A DNA stretch of 38,467 nt from the IMG/VR virus record IMGVR_UViG_3300050821_000425, positions 1-38,467 of that record; one strand, given 5' to 3'. Of the stretch, positions 870 to 34,901 are shown piece by piece (position 1 is the first letter of the stretch; each line of letters starts with the position of its first letter). The DNA comes from a virus. The notes below the pieces were generated by a model. It saw only the letters and a list, made by a program, of their open reading frames with translations. It was not told the DNA's origin and did no database searches. A program made the position numbers and the translations under genes.

Positions 870-1589
870 ATGGTTTCAGGAACTTGGTTTAATCAAGACG
901 GTCTTTATCTGCAGTACGGTACGCAGAAAGCTGTCCCAGAAGTGGGTGGGGATTACCTCATCTACGGCGAAACACGAGAGATTGAGCAACTCATTCCTCT
1001 GGTGCCTTATCAGCTTACGACTAGCGGACAAGCTGTCCCTGGTCCTGCACAGACGACCTTCTCTGGAAGTACGACTGCTGCGGCTGCAGGTATCCAGTCG
1101 TTGACTACGCTTGTACCTCTCCAACAGACGGCTCCAGTTACTACTACGACTTCAGGTACTCTGCTTCTCAGTAATCCCCAAATCTTTATCGAAGAGGTGA
1201 CTATTGAAGGCTTGGTATCCGCAGCTGGTGGAACGAGTATCTCGGTAGGTCTGGTTACAGACTCCCCCGGTACTCCTAACTCGACCTTCGTTCAAGTGTC
1301 TCCTAACGCAGGTGTACAGATCGTTAATGGTCTGCTCACTGCGAATATGGTGGCAGGACAGCGCGTATCATTCACTCAACCAGGAACTACTGGTTTGGTG
1401 TGGAGCGTAGGTGCTACCCCTGTTGCTGGTGGTGGTACTTGGGTTGGTATTAATATGCCTCTAGTGACTAATGCAATTGTGCCACTCCCTGCGAGTGCGT
1501 GGTTGTCTACGGTTGCTACGGGTACGTTTACCAACGGACTTATTAAGCTTCGTATGCGTTATACGATGTACGGAAACATACCCTACTAA
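870..1589 (+). CDS. Probable capsid decoration or head-fibre protein
   Basis: This 239-residue protein starts 17 bases after the capsid stop, behind a TAGGAG ribosome site. The first 60 residues are mixed (tryptophan, tyrosine, acidic). The rest is low in charge and rich in Thr, Gly, Val and Ala, with alternating patterns typical of beta-sandwich virion surface proteins. No catalytic motif is visible. Its place between the capsid gene and a strong terminator suggests an abundant virion component produced with the capsid, such as a decoration protein. I do not recognise the family from sequence, and a head fibre or minor capsid protein is equally possible. Confidence 0.6.
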   Translation: MVSGTWFNQDGLYLQYGTQKAVPEVGGDYLIYGETREIEQLIPLVPYQLTTSGQAVPGPAQTTFSGSTTAAAAGIQSLTTLVPLQQTAPVTTTTSGTLLLSNPQIFIEEVTIEGLVSAAGGTSISVGLVTDSPGTPNSTFVQVSPNAGVQIVNGLLTANMVAGQRVSFTQPGTTGLVWSVGATPVAGGGTWVGINMPLVTNAIVPLPASAWLSTVATGTFTNGLIKLRMRYTMYGNIPY

Positions 1590-1602
1590 GGGTATATCTT
1601 GA

Positions 1603-1632
1603 GGTGGCCCCCGTAAGGGGGCTGCCCCTTTT
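1603..1632 (+). terminator. Rho-independent terminator after the capsid genes
   Basis: GGTGGCCCCC pairs with GGGGGCTGCC around a GTAA tetraloop (ten pairs, two of them G-U on the + strand transcript), followed by CC and TTTT. It begins 13 bases after the stop of the 239-residue gene and ends before the ribosome site of the next gene. It may be a partial attenuator that keeps capsid-level transcription from flowing undiminished into the fibre and tail genes. Confidence 0.8.
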
Positions 1633-1646
1633 AGAAGGAAACATAA

Positions 1647-2132
1647 ATGAGCATACAAGCAAACGTCGGTGGGCAAGACGTGATATGCAACGATATTGTA
1701 GTTGGAGTAACCCAATCGATGGGTGCTGACCCTGCCGCAAAAGGCGGCGGGCAAAATGGCGCTAAATATACTGCAAGAGGCGTCAACTTTAATGCTGGAA
1801 CTACAGATACTGCACTTCTTCTTCCTCTTCCCACAGGAGCTAAGAATTATGTAGTGAGTGCTATCTACATCACCAATGCTAGTCATACCTTAGTTACTGC
1901 AACTTTAGGTGTATTTAGCGGGGCTGGTGGAACAGGGACTACCATTGCTGCAGATCAAGCTATTACGGTAACTAACGGAACTGCAAATACAGCGCTTAAT
2001 ACTCAAGCTCTGACACTGTCCCCTGCAGCTACAATCTGCTTTAATTACGGCACTCTTTACATTCGCGTAGGTACTGCAGAAGGTGCAGCGGCTACTGCGG
2101 ATGTCACGATCTGTCTTACTTACTTAGGCTAA
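1647..2132 (+). CDS. Small beta-rich virion protein
   Basis: The protein has 161 residues and an AGAAGGAA ribosome site six bases before the ATG. Composition is dominated by Ala, Thr, Gly and Asn with very few charged residues, and it reads as an all-beta fold ending in VTICLTYLG. No enzyme motif is visible. It lies between the capsid terminator and the fibre genes, so a decoration, fibre-adaptor or head-fibre role is inferred from position and composition only. Its composition resembles the C-terminal part of the upstream 239-residue protein, but I see no clear residue-level repeat. Confidence 0.6.
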   Translation: MSIQANVGGQDVICNDIVVGVTQSMGADPAAKGGGQNGAKYTARGVNFNAGTTDTALLLPLPTGAKNYVVSAIYITNASHTLVTATLGVFSGAGGTGTTIAADQAITVTNGTANTALNTQALTLSPAATICFNYGTLYIRVGTAEGAAATADVTICLTYLG

Positions 2133-2133
2133 C

Positions 2134-3714
2134 ATGAGCAAAATAACTCTCAATAGTGTTGCTGATTTAACGCAAACTACTACTGCGCAGACCACTATTA
2201 ATGCGAACTCGGGTACGGTTCAAACAGCCTTCGATAATACCTTATCTAGAGATGGTACTCAGCCCAATCAAATGGGCTCAGCTCTAGATATGAATTCTAA
2301 TCCTATTATAAATCTACCTGCTCCAGCATCTCTAAACTCCCCATTACGTCTACAAGACTTAACTTCTTTCATAGGAGGGAGTCTTGTTATACCTGCTGTG
2401 CCCCCAGCGCCTACCCCTTCTACACTAGGAGGCGTATTCTCTGACTCAGCAGTAACTAACCAGTTTGTAACTAACATAGACAATACCGGGACTATTCATC
2501 AAGCACAACCTTCTTTCTCTAATCTTTCAGGTACTGCTACTATAGCTCAACTTCCTGTAGCTACTTCGTCTACAGAAGGTATTGTACAGCCGGATAACAA
2601 TACTATAACCATTAGCGGTGGAGTTATCTCTGCTGCAAATGCGTCTACACTGTTGTCAAGTATCCAAGGTAACTTTGAATTCTATAATGACGGCACTGTT
2701 AACGGTATGGTCCTGTCTTCTTATAATGGCAATAATGCTGTTGTTTGGAATACTGTTACCAATTCCTGGGTTAACTTCCAACTACCGCCTAGTGTTGCCG
2801 TTACCAATGCAGCTAATAACGGAAGCGGTTTAATCCGGATCACCCACGCTATAACTACACGTCCATTTGTCACAGGGCAGACTGTTTACATAAGTGGTGT
2901 AGTTGGCGTGTCAAATGCAAATACAGTACCGCCGGTTTCAGGGCCTTATTTGATTACAGTAATAGACAGCACTCATTTTGATTTACAAGGCTCTACATTT
3001 AGCGGCAGCTATGTAAGCGGGGGGAGTATCCTCGGGTCTGTGAATGCTAACGTAGGCAACATAACTATAAATGGGACTGCAAATCAGGGAGTTACCCCAG
3101 GGACTACCTATTTAGTAGGCTTAGCTTTCTTGGATGCCGCCTGCACTGTATGTCAGTTAGTTCTGTCTACCAACTTAACTGTACCTAATCATGATCCAGT
3201 AATGGGCTTTAATACTCTTGCTGGGTATACGAATGTTCCTCTAGTTGGAATGATCTATTATGATCCTGCACTAGGAGTACAGGGCAATGGACAGTGTCAG
3301 CTTTTAATTTCTTGGTATTCTAGAAATATGGTAGGTCTTCAACAGACGTATGCAGGTACTACAGGCGGGGCTATTAACACCTATGTTCAGATGGCTGAAC
3401 AGGGAACAGGTACACAGATGAAGTGGCTTAACTGGAGCGATTTAAGTCCAAATGTACAGGCCACTATGTCTATTACTGCGTCTTCAGCTTGCTCAGCTAC
3501 AGTTAAGATTGTTCTTACTGGAGCCATTAATTCAACGTCTACTCAACAAGTATTGTTTACTGCAGCGGGAACATGCCCTGTAAGTATATCAATTCCTATT
3601 GAAGCTCAAGAAGCTGGGTTTACTTCTCTGAGAGTATACTTGCAGACGACAGCTAGTACCGTAACGATGGGAACTAATTCAAATGCTATTGTTGGCGTAT
3701 ACACGAACTTCTGA
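2134..3714 (+). CDS. Fibre protein A with shared N-terminal virion-anchor module
   Basis: This 526-residue protein starts one base after the previous stop. Residues about 30-75 contain LSRDGTQPNQM, LDMNSNPIINLPAP and RLQDL, a module that recurs in phage fibre proteins and in the next gene here, and that probably fixes the fibre to the particle. The rest is Thr/Ser/Gly/Asn-rich beta sequence with a middle segment (VYISGVVGV and LITVIDSTHFDLQG) typical of beta-helical or knitted fibre shafts, then a C-terminal domain that probably binds receptor. No depolymerase catalytic signature is evident. Tail fibre is the likeliest role; head fibre cannot be excluded because the gene sits next to capsid genes. 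Confidence 0.75.
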   Translation: MSKITLNSVADLTQTTTAQTTINANSGTVQTAFDNTLSRDGTQPNQMGSALDMNSNPIINLPAPASLNSPLRLQDLTSFIGGSLVIPAVPPAPTPSTLGGVFSDSAVTNQFVTNIDNTGTIHQAQPSFSNLSGTATIAQLPVATSSTEGIVQPDNNTITISGGVISAANASTLLSSIQGNFEFYNDGTVNGMVLSSYNGNNAVVWNTVTNSWVNFQLPPSVAVTNAANNGSGLIRITHAITTRPFVTGQTVYISGVVGVSNANTVPPVSGPYLITVIDSTHFDLQGSTFSGSYVSGGSILGSVNANVGNITINGTANQGVTPGTTYLVGLAFLDAACTVCQLVLSTNLTVPNHDPVMGFNTLAGYTNVPLVGMIYYDPALGVQGNGQCQLLISWYSRNMVGLQQTYAGTTGGAINTYVQMAEQGTGTQMKWLNWSDLSPNVQATMSITASSACSATVKIVLTGAINSTSTQQVLFTAAGTCPVSISIPIEAQEAGFTSLRVYLQTTASTVTMGTNSNAIVGVYTNF

Positions 3715-3724
3715 GGACATATAG

Positions 3725-4876
3725 ATGACTGATAAAGTAACGCTTGGAAGTATAGCTAGTTTTCAGAACGATAGTACAGCTACAGTCCAATATAACTTAA
3801 ATAATATACTACTTACTGGGGCGATAGATAATACCTTATCTAGAGACGGGACTACGCCTAATCAGATGAATGCTAATCTGGATATGAACAGTAACCAGAT
3901 TGTAAATCTTCCTGCACCTATTGCTCCTACAGCTCCTGTACGTCTCGAAGACTTAACTACCTTTCAAGGAGGAGGGACTATTAATGCGATACCTACTGGA
4001 GGGAATACAGGTCAAGCCTTAACTAAGACTAGTAATACAAACTATCAAGTAGGTTGGTCTAATGTTCCAACAGGGCCAGTAACATCTGTATCTGGGGATC
4101 TAGCTACTTGGAACAGCACTACTGGATCTGCAATGGCAGACAGTGGAATTCTAGCTACTAACGTAGTTACCCTTGCAGGCTCTCAAACATTAACTAATAA
4201 GTCTATCGCAGGCTCACAGATTACAGGAACAGTTGCTGGGGCTAATATGGCAGCTGCTAATTTAGCTGCAGGTAATGTTAACGGAGGAGTTAACGGAACT
4301 CTGCCTATTGCTAATGGTGGCACTGGGGCTACAAGCAATACAGGTACAGGTTCTTTAGTCTTAGCTACTTCACCTACTTTAGTCACCCCTACCCTGGGTG
4401 CAGCTACAGCTACTTCTGTTACTTTCAGTCCGACTACAGGCGGTATTATAGGAACTACTACAAATGATAATGCTTCTGCAGGTACTGTAGGGGAGTATAT
4501 AAGTTCAAATGTTCTAACAGCTTCTGCGGTTTCATTAATTACTGCCACAGCTAAAACAGTTACATCAATATCTTTAACAGCAGGAGATTGGGATGTAAAC
4601 GGATCCGTGTATTATGATAATATTGCAGGATCAACGGTAATAACACAGGCAGTTGCAGCCATTAATACTACAACCAATGCTTTGCCTTCAACACCATCAG
4701 GAGGCGGTTCAAACTACTGGATCGGAAGTATAACTGGGAATGGGCCTTATATACCAACGGCAACTCTTCGTTTAAGTTTAGCAACTACAACTACTATATA
4801 TTTAATAGCATACGCCGCATTTACAACTTCAACAGCAAATGCATATGGTCTAATAAGAGCTAGGAGAATTAGGTGA
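3725..4876 (+). CDS. Fibre protein B, paralogue of fibre A
   Basis: The protein has 383 residues. Its N-terminus repeats the fibre A module: LSRDGTTPNQM, LDMNSNQIVNLPAP and RLEDL at about residues 35-80. The centre has the phage fibre repeat vocabulary (LAGSQTLTNKSI, ANGGTGATS, LATSPTLVTPTLG), which is usually trimeric shaft sequence. The C-terminus is a distinct beta domain that may bind the host surface. Two fibres with a shared anchor and different tips suggest either two receptor specificities on one particle or hetero-assembly. The stop overlaps the GTG start of the endolysin gene (GTGA), so translation is likely coupled. Confidence 0.8.
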   Translation: MTDKVTLGSIASFQNDSTATVQYNLNNILLTGAIDNTLSRDGTTPNQMNANLDMNSNQIVNLPAPIAPTAPVRLEDLTTFQGGGTINAIPTGGNTGQALTKTSNTNYQVGWSNVPTGPVTSVSGDLATWNSTTGSAMADSGILATNVVTLAGSQTLTNKSIAGSQITGTVAGANMAAANLAAGNVNGGVNGTLPIANGGTGATSNTGTGSLVLATSPTLVTPTLGAATATSVTFSPTTGGIIGTTTNDNASAGTVGEYISSNVLTASAVSLITATAKTVTSISLTAGDWDVNGSVYYDNIAGSTVITQAVAAINTTTNALPSTPSGGGSNYWIGSITGNGPYIPTATLRLSLATTTTIYLIAYAAFTTSTANAYGLIRARRIR

Positions 4877-18610: not shown

Positions 18611-18651
18611 AAAACCCCCGACATCCGCAAGGACATCGGGGGTTCTCTTTT
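18611..18651. terminator. Bidirectional terminator between convergent gene blocks
   Basis: AACCCCCGA (18613-18621) pairs with TCGGGGGTT (18636-18644), extended inward by TCC/GGA after two mismatches, with a GCAA loop. On the + strand the stem is followed by CTCTTTT. On the - strand it is followed by six T (complement of the AAAAAA before it). It therefore stops the rightward virion operon and the leftward replication operon at the same point. Confidence 0.9.
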
Positions 18652-18745
18652 GTCTCGGAAGGACTTTAACCTTCACCTCCCACGCTTTCGCGTCGAATCA
18701 CGTCGATCCATCAATGTGGGACTCTTGCTGTTGAGCTACGAGACA
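18651..18745 (-). ncRNA. tRNA-like element with oversized anticodon arm
   Basis: On the - strand a 7-bp closing stem TGTCTCG/CGAGACA is followed by TA, a D-arm-like hairpin (GCTC, loop AACAGCAA, GAGT) and, near the 3' end, a 5-bp arm GAAGG/CCTTC with loop TTAAAGT where a tRNA has TTCRANT. The central stem CCCAC/GTGGG encloses 32 bases instead of seven, including a small ACGC-GAAA-GCGT hairpin, so no anticodon can be read. Total length is 95. The 3' end runs straight into the terminator. It could be a decayed tRNA, a tRNA with an insertion, or a tRNA mimic. Confidence 0.5.
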
Positions 18746-24912: not shown

Positions 24913-25134
24913 TTACTTCCTTCTTGTTACGTGATAACCCTCACAGTTAGCACAACGGTAGACGTAGATGTTTATTCCTGCTGAAGCGTACAGATGCTTT
25001 GATACTGCTGCAGCTTGCTTAAAACTCTTATACCTCCGTTTTCTGAGACAAGAGAACTTGAAGTACTGCCTACGGACAGACTCAATGTGTGAGATACCAG
25101 TTCGCGCCCATTGTATAGTCTTGACGATCATCAT
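24913..25134 (-). CDS. Small zinc-finger-like protein
   Basis: The 73-residue protein starts inside the polymerase 3' end (53-base overlap), with GGAG nine bases before the ATG. Cysteines at FSCLRK and in YVYRCANCEGYHVTRR, with the final Cys-x2-Cys-x3-His, give a common small phage/bacterial zinc-ribbon pattern; the middle is helical (SFKQAAAVSKHLYASAGI). It is probably a nucleic-acid-binding accessory protein. Confidence 0.65.
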   Translation of the reverse strand: MMIVKTIQWARTGISHIESVRRQYFKFSCLRKRRYKSFKQAAAVSKHLYASAGINIYVYRCANCEGYHVTRRK

Positions 25135-27439
25135 TCCAGTAGCTCCCTGCCATCGGACAGTTGAGTTTCAATTCCTCACCTGCCCACTTGATTGAGTCTG
25201 CGACTATCTGTGCAACTTCCAAACCAATCTCTTTATTTGGTACTTCTATCTGGTACTCATCATGAATAATATCAACTAAAAAGCTTTGTAGTTTATCGAG
25301 TCGGGGTGCGAAGTGGGTAGCAGCAAGTTTGATGATGATTGCCTCTCCACATTGGAGGTATCCGCTGGGGGCAAGGTGCTTTCGTTCGTCAATTGTATTT
25401 CCTGGAATTGGAACTCGTCGTCCGTCGAGGCCGATAAAATATCCTTGCTTAGCGTCACTTGGAGCGACCTTTCGCTTAACGTAATCAATCCCAGGATATT
25501 CCCGGAGCAAGAGAGCGAGAGCCTTCTCTGCTTCGTATCTTGAGCTATCCAGAATTTCCGCAAGCTTGCCAATGCCTGCACCAAGGAATGTAGAGAAGAG
25601 GAATTGCTTGGCTGCTTGTCTGGTCTTGCAGACAGGTCCAAAGAGGGTTTTATTAAAGGAATGTGTGTCGGTCTTATCGGCTTTTCGTCCATTAACAATT
25701 CTTTCAGTTAACTTAGGGTCGTTGATATAATGCGCAGCCACTCTGAATTGAATACTATCTGCGTCTACACCTAAAAGTAATCTTCCCTTTCCTGCAACCC
25801 ATAGAGATCGTAATTCTTTACCTAAATATTTAACTTGTCCTGTAGCGTTATCAAACTCTAAAGGAATGTTAGCTAGGTTAGGAGCCCTATGCGCCATCCT
25901 CATGGTCCAAGCGCCGATACCAGCAAACTCTGCATGGATACGACCGTCTGGGGAAAGGAGAGAAAGCCATTCGGTCAGTGTACGACGCCTGGACTCACGG
26001 AGGATACGCTTGGCAATCAAGCGGGCAGGAGGAGGGGCTTCGTAAAAGGTATTCTTTAGCTGATCCTTCAAATCTTTCAAACCATCCAAGGTATCCATTA
26101 CATAACTTGCAGAGAAGTCCACGAACATTGCCTGTGGCGTGACAATGATCAACCACAAGTTCTTTTCGTTCTCCACAAATCTTGCAACATCCTTGTTGTT
26201 CAGAAGACATCTGTTCAAAATCTTCAATAGAAATTCTATAATTTTTCCTGAGCTGTCGGTCTTTAGATGCTCTTGGATTTTTATAGTGTGCAGCAAGTGC
26301 TGCGGATTTAAGCTTATTACGGAACTCTTCGTTTGTTCTGTAACGTTCTCTACGGTACGCATTCTTTTGTAAACGACGTTCAGGTCTTTTATCGTATTTA
26401 CGATAATATTCTCTTCGTCGTTCTGAAGTTTTAAAAGGCATCTGTTCTTATCAATCAAACTCGCGAGATTATTTTCGTTGACTTTCCAACCGTACTTCTG
26501 AAACTTGATTAGTTTAGCAGATAATTCTGCTATGTCAAGATCTTTTTCTTCAGTTCGTGATCTCTTACACTTCGCCAATTCGCGTAGTGTCTTGATGTGT
26601 GTGTCAGTCTTGTCTGTCGGAGACCAGCCTGCTTGATTGAGTACTTCAATAACCTGCTTAGGAGATGCAGGATTAAACGGTTCGTAAACGAGTCGGGTAA
26701 AAGGACCACCGTTGTATTCTGATAAATCACCATCTTTAACGAACCTGAAATCACTTCGATTAAGAGTGCCGTATTTGGTAAGTTTTGGATGTACTTCTCG
26801 TATAGGCTTCGGTTTCGGTCTGAAGACCTCTTTAATCTCTGTGTCCAACCCATCTAACTCTCCTTTGACCTGGTTCAGAAGAACAGTAGCCTCAGAAGAA
26901 TTAAAAGCAAAGCCATGGTCGTGTACACTATTAAGAATAACCTGGAATTTATTCTCCAGTGTAATGCTTGGAAGCCAAGCAGGATCCATAATGTAATCCA
27001 GAAAATGTAGATAAACTTTATGGCCCAGATCAACGTCCCGTACACAGTAGTCCTCCATCTCTTGAGACCAGTGTGTGAAGTCGCTAAACCAGATCTTAGC
27101 TAGTTCAAACTCTACCCCATAAGATGCTAAGGAGTGTCCGTACTCACGAGAGTAATTAACTAAACGAGAGATAACCAGAGTATCAATTGTCCAGTCAATT
27201 CTAGGTAAAGACCAACCCAAAAGATTAACGAGGACAGGAAAATCAAACTCAAGAATGTTATGACCAATCCAAAGAGTGACACCGTCACTAAATTCGATAA
27301 AGCGTTTCTTAGCTTCTGCATCTGTAGTTAGGTTCCTAAATATATGGTACTGGCCTGTATCAATATCTTTACAGACGACAACCCAAATCTGTGTTGGGTC
27401 GTGTAATTTATCTGTCTCAATGTCAATTACACACTTCAA
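25082..27439 (-). CDS. Family A DNA polymerase with 3'-5' exonuclease and a 138-residue insert
   Basis: The 785-residue replicative polymerase begins at TTG, overlapping the previous TGA; upstream the frame is closed. Exonuclease motifs are DIETD near residue 6 and GHNILEFDFP near 59. Polymerase motif A is VDADSIQFR (Asp559), motif B R607-x3-K611-x3-F615 with LGAG, and motif C HDE (726-728). Motif A has Gln564 where most family A enzymes have Glu, and motif B has Phe where T7 has Tyr. Residues about 329-466 interrupt the usual join between NENNLASL and EAPPPARL in the thumb and correspond to an HNH gene read out of frame. Without them the length is about 647, near the usual size for related phage enzymes. 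Confidence 0.92.
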   Translation of the reverse strand: MKCVIDIETDKLHDPTQIWVVVCKDIDTGQYHIFRNLTTDAEAKKRFIEFSDGVTLWIGHNILEFDFPVLVNLLGWSLPRIDWTIDTLVISRLVNYSREYGHSLASYGVEFELAKIWFSDFTHWSQEMEDYCVRDVDLGHKVYLHFLDYIMDPAWLPSITLENKFQVILNSVHDHGFAFNSSEATVLLNQVKGELDGLDTEIKEVFRPKPKPIREVHPKLTKYGTLNRSDFRFVKDGDLSEYNGGPFTRLVYEPFNPASPKQVIEVLNQAGWSPTDKTDTHIKTLRELAKCKRSRTEEKDLDIAELSAKLIKFQKYGWKVNENNLASLIDKNRCLLKLQNDEENIIVNTIKDLNVVYKRMRTVENVTEQTKSSVISLNPQHLLHTIKIQEHLKTDSSGKIIEFLLKILNRCLLNNKDVARFVENEKNLWLIIVTPQAMFVDFSASYVMDTLDGLKDLKDQLKNTFYEAPPPARLIAKRILRESRRRTLTEWLSLLSPDGRIHAEFAGIGAWTMRMAHRAPNLANIPLEFDNATGQVKYLGKELRSLWVAGKGRLLLGVDADSIQFRVAAHYINDPKLTERIVNGRKADKTDTHSFNKTLFGPVCKTRQAAKQFLFSTFLGAGIGKLAEILDSSRYEAEKALALLLREYPGIDYVKRKVAPSDAKQGYFIGLDGRRVPIPGNTIDERKHLAPSGYLQCGEAIIIKLAATHFAPRLDKLQSFLVDIIHDEYQIEVPNKEIGLEVAQIVADSIKWAGEELKLNCPMAGSYWNDDRQDYTMGANWYLTH
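25995..26441 (-). CDS. Endonuclease VII-type HNH homing endonuclease nested in the polymerase gene
   Basis: The 148-residue frame lies wholly inside the DNA polymerase gene, shifted relative to it. The C-terminal half has the full family signature: Cys86-x2-Cys89, Asp98-His99, the HATGNVRGLL segment, Cys111-x2-Cys114 and Asn115. The N-terminal half is basic and helical (DNA binding). The last about 16 residues (from LRSPSSC) are an out-of-frame reading of polymerase sequence, so the insert brought no stop of its own. The ribosome site is weak (AAGA). Such enzymes spread by cutting uninserted alleles; here the target would be the polymerase thumb region. No room is left for an intron ribozyme. 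Confidence 0.85.
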   Translation of the reverse strand: MPFKTSERRREYYRKYDKRPERRLQKNAYRRERYRTNEEFRNKLKSAALAAHYKNPRASKDRQLRKNYRISIEDFEQMSSEQQGCCKICGERKELVVDHCHATGNVRGLLCKLCNGYLGWFERFEGSAKEYLLRSPSSCPLDCQAYPP

Positions 27440-30116: not shown

Positions 30117-31518
30117 TTGCTACTCCCTTCCATTCAGCGTTATCGTTAGCTACTTCCGTAAACTTACGAGTAGAAGAATTGAAAGTGATGCTGCCAGCGA
30201 AGCCACTACGACCTGTAAAACGGCAAGGTTTCGATATGGTTTGAGTGATCGTAGACTGAATAATAGGGTCAGCGTTAAGTACATCACGAGAAAGATCAAT
30301 GCGAATGTCAGCCAGCTTTCCGGGAGCACGACTTCCACGAGTCTGTCCAAAGTCATTGACGTGGCTCACCACTATGAGTGCGAAGCCCAGCTCTTTGACC
30401 ATCATCTCCAAGCGGGACATGAGGTAGTCTAAGGCTCGTCTTTCATCCTCCCCGGCAAGACCTGTAACAGCCATGGTGATATGATCCAACAGGATATACC
30501 GACAAAGACAGGCAGACACGAGAAAGCGAATTGTGTCCAGAAGAGCATCTGGATCAATGCTCCCAAAGTGAGAGTACAGAAAAAGACGCTCATCTCTCTT
30601 GAGAAGTTTCTTGAGGGTATCAACTTGCTCAGGTACGCTAATGGTTTGGTCTGGAAGATGAACGGGTGCTCCTTTTTCAATACCGACAAGCGAGCGGAGG
30701 TGCCACTCTTTAGGTTCCTCAATGTAGATCGCGCCGACATTGTCATCTGTCTCCCTTAAGAGTTGAACTTCAACAGCCTTCATCCACTCTGTCTTACCTA
30801 CTCCTTCCGGAGCAGTGACGAGGATAGTCTCGTACTGACGTATCCCGCCAGTCATCTCGGTTAAGGTGGGCCATGGATAAGGGACCCCTTTAGACGTGTC
30901 CTTGGATAGTGCATCCTCGAACTCCCCGAAGGTGGAGATAATATTATCTGGCTTATAACGCTTGGCGTTAGTCCAGACGTTCAGGAGTTCGTTTACTTCA
31001 CCATGTTGAAGGTGGTCGTTAGCGTCCTTTCGGGCGAGATTAACGACGTAGACGCGGTTGACATCGAACAGCTTGGCAACTGATGCGAGAGCCTCTCGAC
31101 CAGGTCCGTCGTTGTCGAAGCATATGTAGACGCGGTCGAACCCAGATAACCATTCGAAGCTAGCCACACAGTCCCTCCGAGCAGTACTACTAGACTGCAC
31201 AGAAACTGCAGGAATGCGAAGAACTTGCCAAAGCGAGTGCGCATCTTCTTCTCCCTCCGTGACGACACAGTATTTGTTTGATCCTGAAGCGAATATGTCT
31301 GTGCCGTATAGCCCGGGGACCGGGGAACCAAACCAATGGAATGACTTCCCTTCTAAATCTCTAATTTTAACCGCCCCGTTTGGATAATGATACCCAACGG
31401 AGATAGGTTTTCCTTCTCTATTAATTTTAGTCTGGCAGCCATAATGCCTAAAACACTCTGACGTAATGCCTCGTCGTCCGTAAAATTCATAAGTGAACTC
31501 TGGTCCATCGTCTACCAC
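30109..31518 (-). CDS. Primase-helicase, T7 gp4-like, lacking the zinc domain
   Basis: This 469-residue protein starts at GTG within the end of the zinc-finger gene. The TOPRIM primase part carries Glu88 (VVTEGEEDAHSL) and Asp135-x-Asp137 (CFDNDGPG). The DnaB-like helicase part has Walker A APEGVGKT (236-243), Walker B YILLDH and a VVSHVNDFGQTRGS segment for motifs 3-4. It would unwind the fork as a hexamer and lay down primers for the polymerase. In T7 the zinc-binding domain is the N-terminus of the same chain; here the chain begins just after it, and the domain is a separate overlapping gene. Confidence 0.92.
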   Translation of the reverse strand: MVDDGPEFTYEFYGRRGITSECFRHYGCQTKINREGKPISVGYHYPNGAVKIRDLEGKSFHWFGSPVPGLYGTDIFASGSNKYCVVTEGEEDAHSLWQVLRIPAVSVQSSSTARRDCVASFEWLSGFDRVYICFDNDGPGREALASVAKLFDVNRVYVVNLARKDANDHLQHGEVNELLNVWTNAKRYKPDNIISTFGEFEDALSKDTSKGVPYPWPTLTEMTGGIRQYETILVTAPEGVGKTEWMKAVEVQLLRETDDNVGAIYIEEPKEWHLRSLVGIEKGAPVHLPDQTISVPEQVDTLKKLLKRDERLFLYSHFGSIDPDALLDTIRFLVSACLCRYILLDHITMAVTGLAGEDERRALDYLMSRLEMMVKELGFALIVVSHVNDFGQTRGSRAPGKLADIRIDLSRDVLNADPIIQSTITQTISKPCRFTGRSGFAGSITFNSSTRKFTEVANDNAEWKGVANG

Positions 31519-34825: not shown

Positions 34826-34901
34826 TGGTGCTCGCGGTGGGACTCGAACCCACAGAAAAGGGATTTTAAGTCCCTCGCGTTTACCTTTTCGCCACGCGAG
34901 C
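34826..34901 (-). tRNA. tRNA-Leu(UAA), short variable loop, CCA encoded
   Basis: A full cloverleaf: acceptor GCTCGCG/CGCGAGC, discriminator A and encoded CCA; D-arm GCG/CGC with a GG in the loop; anticodon arm AGGGA-CTTAAAA-TCCCT with anticodon TAA; variable loop TTTCT; T-arm GTGGG-TTCGAGT-CCCAC. Anticodon UAA reads the codon UUA, which is frequent in the phage's AT-rich virion genes. Bacterial tRNA-Leu normally has a long variable arm; this one has only five bases, giving a 76-base class I body. Its 5' end overlaps the 3' end of the next small gene by 21 bases. Confidence 0.9.

Follow-up and report, generated by a model that had tools for sequence, protein, structure and literature searches.

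A probable unspliced homing element, carrying an Endonuclease VII-type HNH gene out of frame, in the T7-like DNA polymerase gene of a virus

How can a replicative DNA polymerase gene hold an intact endonuclease gene in another reading frame and still be open from end to end? Homing endonucleases in essential genes are usually thought to survive only via splicing, as introns or inteins, or via gene splitting. In the window, by which we mean the whole stretch of DNA analyzed, a virus record of 38,467 bases, an Endonuclease VII-type HNH gene lies intact and out of frame within a polymerase frame open for 785 codons, and both ORFs are as the original prediction described them. The features of the locus are as follows.

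25082..27439, minus strand: family-A (T7-like) DNA polymerase gene, 785 codons, TTG start, frame open across the insert (ORF listing)
26456..27439, minus strand: polymerase residues 1-328, 3'-5' exonuclease domain up to the thumb, ending in KVNENNLASL (alignment with uninserted relatives)
26042..26455, minus strand: element inserted at site S1, 414 nt, polymerase frame without stops (empty sites in L052, L060, L053, L338, and others)
25995..26441, minus strand: HNH endonuclease ORF (Endonuclease VII type), 148 aa, frame -1 relative to the polymerase (ORF listing)
26073..26258, minus strand: Endonuclease VII core, HNH residues 62-123, with CxxC, VDHCH, and CxxCN (Pfam match span)
25995..26041, minus strand: C-terminal tail and stop of the HNH ORF, from resumed polymerase sequence read out of frame (junction codons)
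25082..26041, minus strand: polymerase residues 467-785, rest of the thumb, palm, and fingers, with motif C (HDE) (sequence, alignment, and model)

The polymerase ORF matches Pfam DNA_pol_A (4.7e-33) and the PHROG family phrog_17, DNA polymerase (7e-85), and it keeps the exonuclease carboxylates and motif C (HDE). The HNH ORF matches Pfam Endonuclease_7 (PF02945; E value of 2.6e-18, 66 bits versus a cut-off of 23.6) and phrog_2914, endonuclease VII (5e-25), and carries the zinc cysteines and the D-H...N core (VDHCH...CxxCN) of Endonuclease VII HNH proteins. A contig of another metagenome (L002) matches the window over 10,018 bp with a single mismatch at 30607, outside the polymerase gene; the structure is therefore not an assembly error.

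Alignment with uninserted polymerases bears out the claim that residues 329 to 466 or so are foreign and that polymerase sequence resumes at EAPPPARL. Where relatives read NLxTLP-x-x-AP, the window reads NLASL, then the 138 residues of the insert (329-466), then EAPPPARL. The exact 138-residue gap that had been expected stands as to the number of inserted codons but not as to the net difference, which is 136 codons (408 nt), since relatives keep two residues (P-x) at the insert position. The HNH ORF opens with an ATG 14 nt into the insert, fills 400 of the 414 nt of the insert, and then extends 47 nt into resumed polymerase sequence, the source of its last residues and stop; in L051, by comparison, the HNH stop is near the end of the insert itself. 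The GC content of the insert is 0.37, versus 0.41 and 0.47 in the flanks. A 7-base repeat, CCTTTTA, near both ends of the insert was considered as a target-site duplication and rejected, since the copies are 389 nt apart, which is not a multiple of three, and excision between them would break the frame.

In-frame insertion into an essential gene is typical of inteins, so that an insert splicing itself out of the protein has to be weighed. However, the splice positions (Ile329...Tyr466, followed by Glu467) offer no Cys, Ser, or Thr and no terminal Asn, in keeping with the predicted lack of intein boundary residues; no Pfam intein family is found, and the segment is an HNH gene in a shifted frame. 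We regard an intein-like insert as virtually out of the question.

Relatives were collected with a polymerase alignment as the first query and single inserted polymerases as later ones; these scans together yielded about 200 related polymerase loci. Most of these have an empty site, and the polymerase without an insert that was to be sought is thus represented by L052, L060, L053, L338, and others. Five further, divergent polymerases carry a nested out-of-frame HNH gene in an unbroken polymerase frame, making six with the window. Besides the window, S1 is occupied in L051 (762 codons), of which L223 is a near-identical contig, and in L227 (750 codons). An HNH element related to that of S1 occupies a second site, S2, in L054 (728 codons), L229 (757 codons), and L277 (811 codons); S2 lies about 25 codons downstream of S1, between the thumb helix ending in TEW and the strand RIHG. 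In all six genes the nested HNH has the same phase relative to the polymerase, the polymerase frame is preserved across the insert, and the insertion length is a multiple of three. The nested HNHs of the five other carriers all belong to Pfam Endonuclease_7, and the Endonuclease VII core residues are found in every nested copy, L229 having DHDH instead of DHCH. L227 and the empty L338, for example, share 76% identity over 624 residues and differ by a net insert of 360 nt. A homologous domain read in the same frame, which had been named as the finding that would speak against overprinting, is not what the relatives carry: the element in L051 and L227 encodes an HNH protein, and does so in a frame other than that of the polymerase.

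In a tree of 86 polymerases, every inserted gene is a single tip beside empty-site genes, so that the six tips are scattered. The S1 HNHs are 53-54% identical to one another and their host polymerases 40-43%; that the HNHs are closer than their hosts would fit lateral spread of site-specific lineages between hosts, as far as sequence comparison can tell. Among the listed records of cultured phages there is no inserted member. Longer polymerases occur in Vibrio phage CHOED and Aeromonas phage 1233, where no nested HNH is annotated, and a scan of genome contigs gave no convincing nested case.

Is the second frame open by chance or by selection? In the nested HNH genes the polymerase frame has no stop in six of six, whereas the third frame has 6-19 stops. 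Two null models were used: in the first, the HNH protein was fixed and its codons were redrawn from host polymerase usage; in the second, each HNH gene's own synonymous codons were permuted. With host codon usage, the probability of a stop-free frame is 0.0094 for the window, 0.011 for L051, 0.14 for L227, 0.012 for L054, 0.015 for L229, and 0.0055 for L277. The joint probability for the six copies is 10^-10.9 under the host-usage model and 10^-5.5 (about 3e-6) under codon permutation, the latter test being overconservative because the permuted codons already carry any selection. Among 63 free-standing Endonuclease VII HNH genes with a GC content below 0.55, none is open in the corresponding comparison, each having 1-13 stops over the last 100-110 codons. 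The nested copies came from a search for length gaps in polymerases. Because introns and split genes, whose gaps contain stops, turned up in it too, the sample was not preselected for openness.

These numbers bear on the reading that the second frame of the HNH gene happens to be open and that the polymerase is unharmed or decaying. For the window alone, the probability is about 0.003-0.009 with host codon usage and 0.08-0.25 with its own codons permuted, the frame thus staying open in 8-25% of synonymous-codon permutations. The window case by itself is only suggestive, and the original argument that so long a stop-free frame is unlikely by chance holds for the six copies against the controls rather than for the single gene. 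The six cases jointly are decisive: with 6/6 open against 0/63, a joint probability of at most about 3e-6, and conserved polymerase sequence downstream, coincidence is scarcely credible. The six cases, the control set, and the empty-site relatives support, from sequence, the proposal that selection keeps the second frame readable as polymerase; to our knowledge, this is the first quantitative evidence of such second-frame selection. The hydrophobicity of the overprinted peptide falls below expectation in L054 and L277 only.

Is the polymerase itself still in use? For the region downstream of the insert, dN to an outgroup was compared in trios of an inserted gene, an empty gene, and the outgroup. 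The values were 0.176 for L227 (inserted) and 0.177 for L338 (empty) with L325 as the outgroup, at a pairwise omega of about 0.1; 0.188 for L277 (inserted) and 0.177 for L315 (empty), 0.207 for L229 (inserted) and 0.178 for L274 (empty), and 0.375 for L054 (inserted) and 0.343 for L233 (empty). The window polymerase is somewhat faster than L052 (downstream dN of 0.379 versus 0.300). The downstream omega is about 0.1-0.2 where computable, dS being mostly saturated. Since downstream dN is similar in inserted and empty lineages, the downstream half must still be made.

The AlphaFold model of the window polymerase matches T7 DNA polymerase in the PDB (E value of 4e-31). Confident polymerase domains flank the insert, residues 1-328 having pLDDT values mostly above 80, whereas the S1 insert has values of 34-58. 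In the model of L277 the S2 insert likewise has pLDDT values mostly of 36-68, and the polymerase fold is intact. Both sites are on the thumb side and distant in sequence from the catalytic motifs. An insert of 138 residues could nevertheless reduce polymerase activity. It may also be that in some lineages the polymerase has put the out-of-frame segment to use, for instance in DNA grip or processivity; we think this improbable, but it would mean, if true, that overprinting on a mobile element gave rise to a protein domain within a replicative enzyme.

A rival reading is a split polymerase: the exonuclease and polymerase domains would be made as two proteins from genes flanking the HNH, and the frame would be open only incidentally. 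There is precedent in this family. In CRP-5 (L047) and ICBM2 (L050) the polymerase is encoded by two genes that overlap, the split falling just upstream of S1, and in L068, L073, and L077 the two halves flank a third ORF. The frames of these split relatives are, however, broken by stops, whereas they are open in all six nested cases, which a split gene does not need. The window has no host-frame stop with a separate second start, as in L073 and CRP-5, but a single open frame of 785 codons, and a split at S2 would separate the thumb helices from the palm. We therefore consider a split gene unlikely.

Alternatively, the insert might be removed from the RNA by an unrecognized or highly reduced intron. 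A related polymerase, L269, does have a group I intron (Rfam, 57 bits) with an HNH remnant at 4333-4692, at the fingers motif between AKTF and IYAFLLGAG, and the RNA of the window insert is very stably folded (z score of -4.63). Compared with shuffled sequence, the stability of the fold at 26042-26455 (minus strand) comes mainly from one long hairpin over the HNH core. This structure is not common to the copies, z being near 0 in L054, L229, and L277; the set of six nested copies is similar in RNA structure to free-standing HNH genes, and the fold was thus not taken as a ribozyme. With Rfam, curated thresholds give no intron for any of the six, and E values up to 10 give none in the window region; in particular, no nested copy matches RF00028, whereas L269, as a positive control, does. 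With 400 of 414 nt occupied by the HNH ORF, no room is left for a group I or II intron, as the original prediction held. Moreover, introns need no stop-free frame, and the insert of L269 has stops in all three frames. An intron is accordingly very unlikely.

Another way around the insert would be translational bypassing, with ribosomes hopping over it as in T4 gene 60. A hop of 414 nt would be far longer than the gene 60 bypass, which spans about 50 nt; no matching take-off and landing codons were seen where the insert joins the polymerase, and bypassing does not depend on an open frame. Although the mobA homing endonuclease gene is inserted in T4 gene 60 (PMC2988022) and the window insert contains a long hairpin, we judge bypassing highly improbable.

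Of the readings weighed here, only read-through with retention predicts an open frame (ALTERNATIVES). We therefore favor, with good though incomplete confidence, an unspliced dual-frame homing element whose out-of-frame peptide is retained by the polymerase as a thumb-side loop. The mobile element would consist of little beyond an Endonuclease VII-family HNH gene, placed in a thumb-side surface loop of the replicative polymerase. Since the insert length is a multiple of three and the second frame is stop-free, ribosomes could translate straight across the insert without splicing, and the polymerase would keep the segment of about 138 residues as a loosely folded loop. Initiation inside the insert, on the same mRNA, would yield the HNH protein, probably at a low level, as the window has no clear ribosome-binding site. 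Alleles lacking the element would then be cut by the HNH protein at this site, and repair of the break would insert a copy.

How the HNH might be initiated seems to vary among the copies. Its start codon is ATG in the window and L051, GTG in L227, and TTG in L054, and in L229 and L277 the start possibly lies within the host codons for TEW; ribosome-binding sites are weak or absent in the nested copies. Expression by frameshifting was rejected as a general mechanism, the slippery heptamer being missing in L051, L054, and L227. In the window, a perfect -1 slippery heptamer, T TTA AAA, is present in the polymerase frame at about 26430-26437 (minus strand), at the very start of the HNH, where a -1 slip would fuse the exonuclease domain to the HNH.

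The out-of-frame HNH architecture is not unprecedented: a 2025 paper described ShiLan-type insertions in phage methylases (PMC11855218). The ShiLan domain is an in-frame insertion of 202 residues in a mycobacteriophage methylase, with an HNH hidden in the third frame that starts 18 nt inside the insertion; it bears no sign of an intron or intein, and homing was inferred from its disjunct distribution (PMC11855218). Pacc40 gp60, a helicase-methylase, is the second case in that study, and Applejack gp54/gp55 is a later one (PMC12613952). Matches to HNH/I-HmuI-like proteins for ShiLan and to AP2/HNH for Pacc40 were described, endonuclease VII not being mentioned, and the question of how the HNH is started was also raised there (PMC11855218).

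The window shares with ShiLan the in-frame insert, the stop-free host frame, the HNH in another frame with a start just inside the insert (14 versus 18 nt), the missing intron and intein signatures, the scattered distribution, and a low-confidence loop in the model. Given the same phase and layout, this kind of element is already known. Mycobacteriophage genomes are high in GC, so that an open second frame is less surprising there. Here, by contrast, the GC content is lower, the virus is not a mycobacteriophage, two sites in one gene are occupied, selection on the second frame is quantified, and the host is a replicative DNA polymerase, presumably essential, rather than a dispensable methylase. 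The HNH, too, is of the Endonuclease VII type (PF02945), unlike those of ShiLan and Pacc40. No description of a DNA polymerase host for such an element was found in open-access papers. What is new, then, is the replicative (and probably essential) polymerase host, the other endonuclease family, and the recurrence at two sites.

Dual coding as a third way for homing endonucleases to persist, beside splicing and gene splitting, was proposed in 2025 from a dispensable mycobacteriophage methylase. Its recurrence at least six times in a replicative polymerase, in two loops and mostly at about 40% GC, makes it look like a general strategy. Nested elements of this kind explain odd long insertions in phage polymerases, and gene callers may hide the nucleases that they encode.

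A further locus, L135, from a 63-kb virus record, has a helicase-methylase ORF at 1348-4521 (1057 codons open) with an out-of-frame Endonuclease VII HNH at 2393-2953. Homologues from Pseudomonas phages align to about 82% of it in two segments, as would be expected of an empty site. Its host frame is in the other phase than in the polymerase cases, the probability of openness being 0.011. L135 is likely another ShiLan-type case.

Homing endonucleases have been found in essential phage genes in other forms, including Aeh1 nrdA/mobE, T4 gene 60/mobA, and the split gene 43 (reviewed in PMC2988022). These systems, like Veravirus CRP-5 and ICBM2, resemble the window in having an endonuclease, or its possible footprint, without an intron, but their hosts are split into separate polypeptides, whereas the host frame of the window is unbroken. 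The split in CRP-5 and ICBM2 may be the scar of a lost endonuclease. In the Veravirus-like L068, L073, and L077, the ORF between the polymerase halves is cysteine-rich (HNH-like).

The finding of HNH genes within group I introns of T7-like DNA polymerase genes is attributed to Bonocora and Shub (2004), as cited in PMC11855218. The expectation that homing endonucleases occur in such genes within introns is thus met in part: introns exist, but they are not the only arrangement, given the split polymerases with an intervening ORF. The intron-bearing polymerases, including L269, have an HNH in the same polymerase family as the window; the L269 insert differs in its catalytic fingers site, its match to the group I model, and its host-frame stops. 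Another polymerase, L210, has an HNH at the same fingers motif (2100-2900), with polymerase-frame stops and no Rfam match. The polymerase family hence shows three accommodations of homing endonucleases, namely, unspliced nested genes, introns, and split genes. The contrast between unspliced elements in surface loops and an intron at the catalytic fingers site suggests that the splicing element is found where an insert probably could not be carried.

In two further loci, about 350 bp with no recognized HNH interrupt the polymerase gene upstream of S1 (L252, 3852-4204, and L259, 3852-4203). Elsewhere in the window, Rfam identifies two tRNAs, at 18650-18745 and 34826-34901 (both minus strand). 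ARAGORN misses the 96-nt candidate at 18650-18745 and reports only that at 34826-34901, as tRNA-Leu(TAA).
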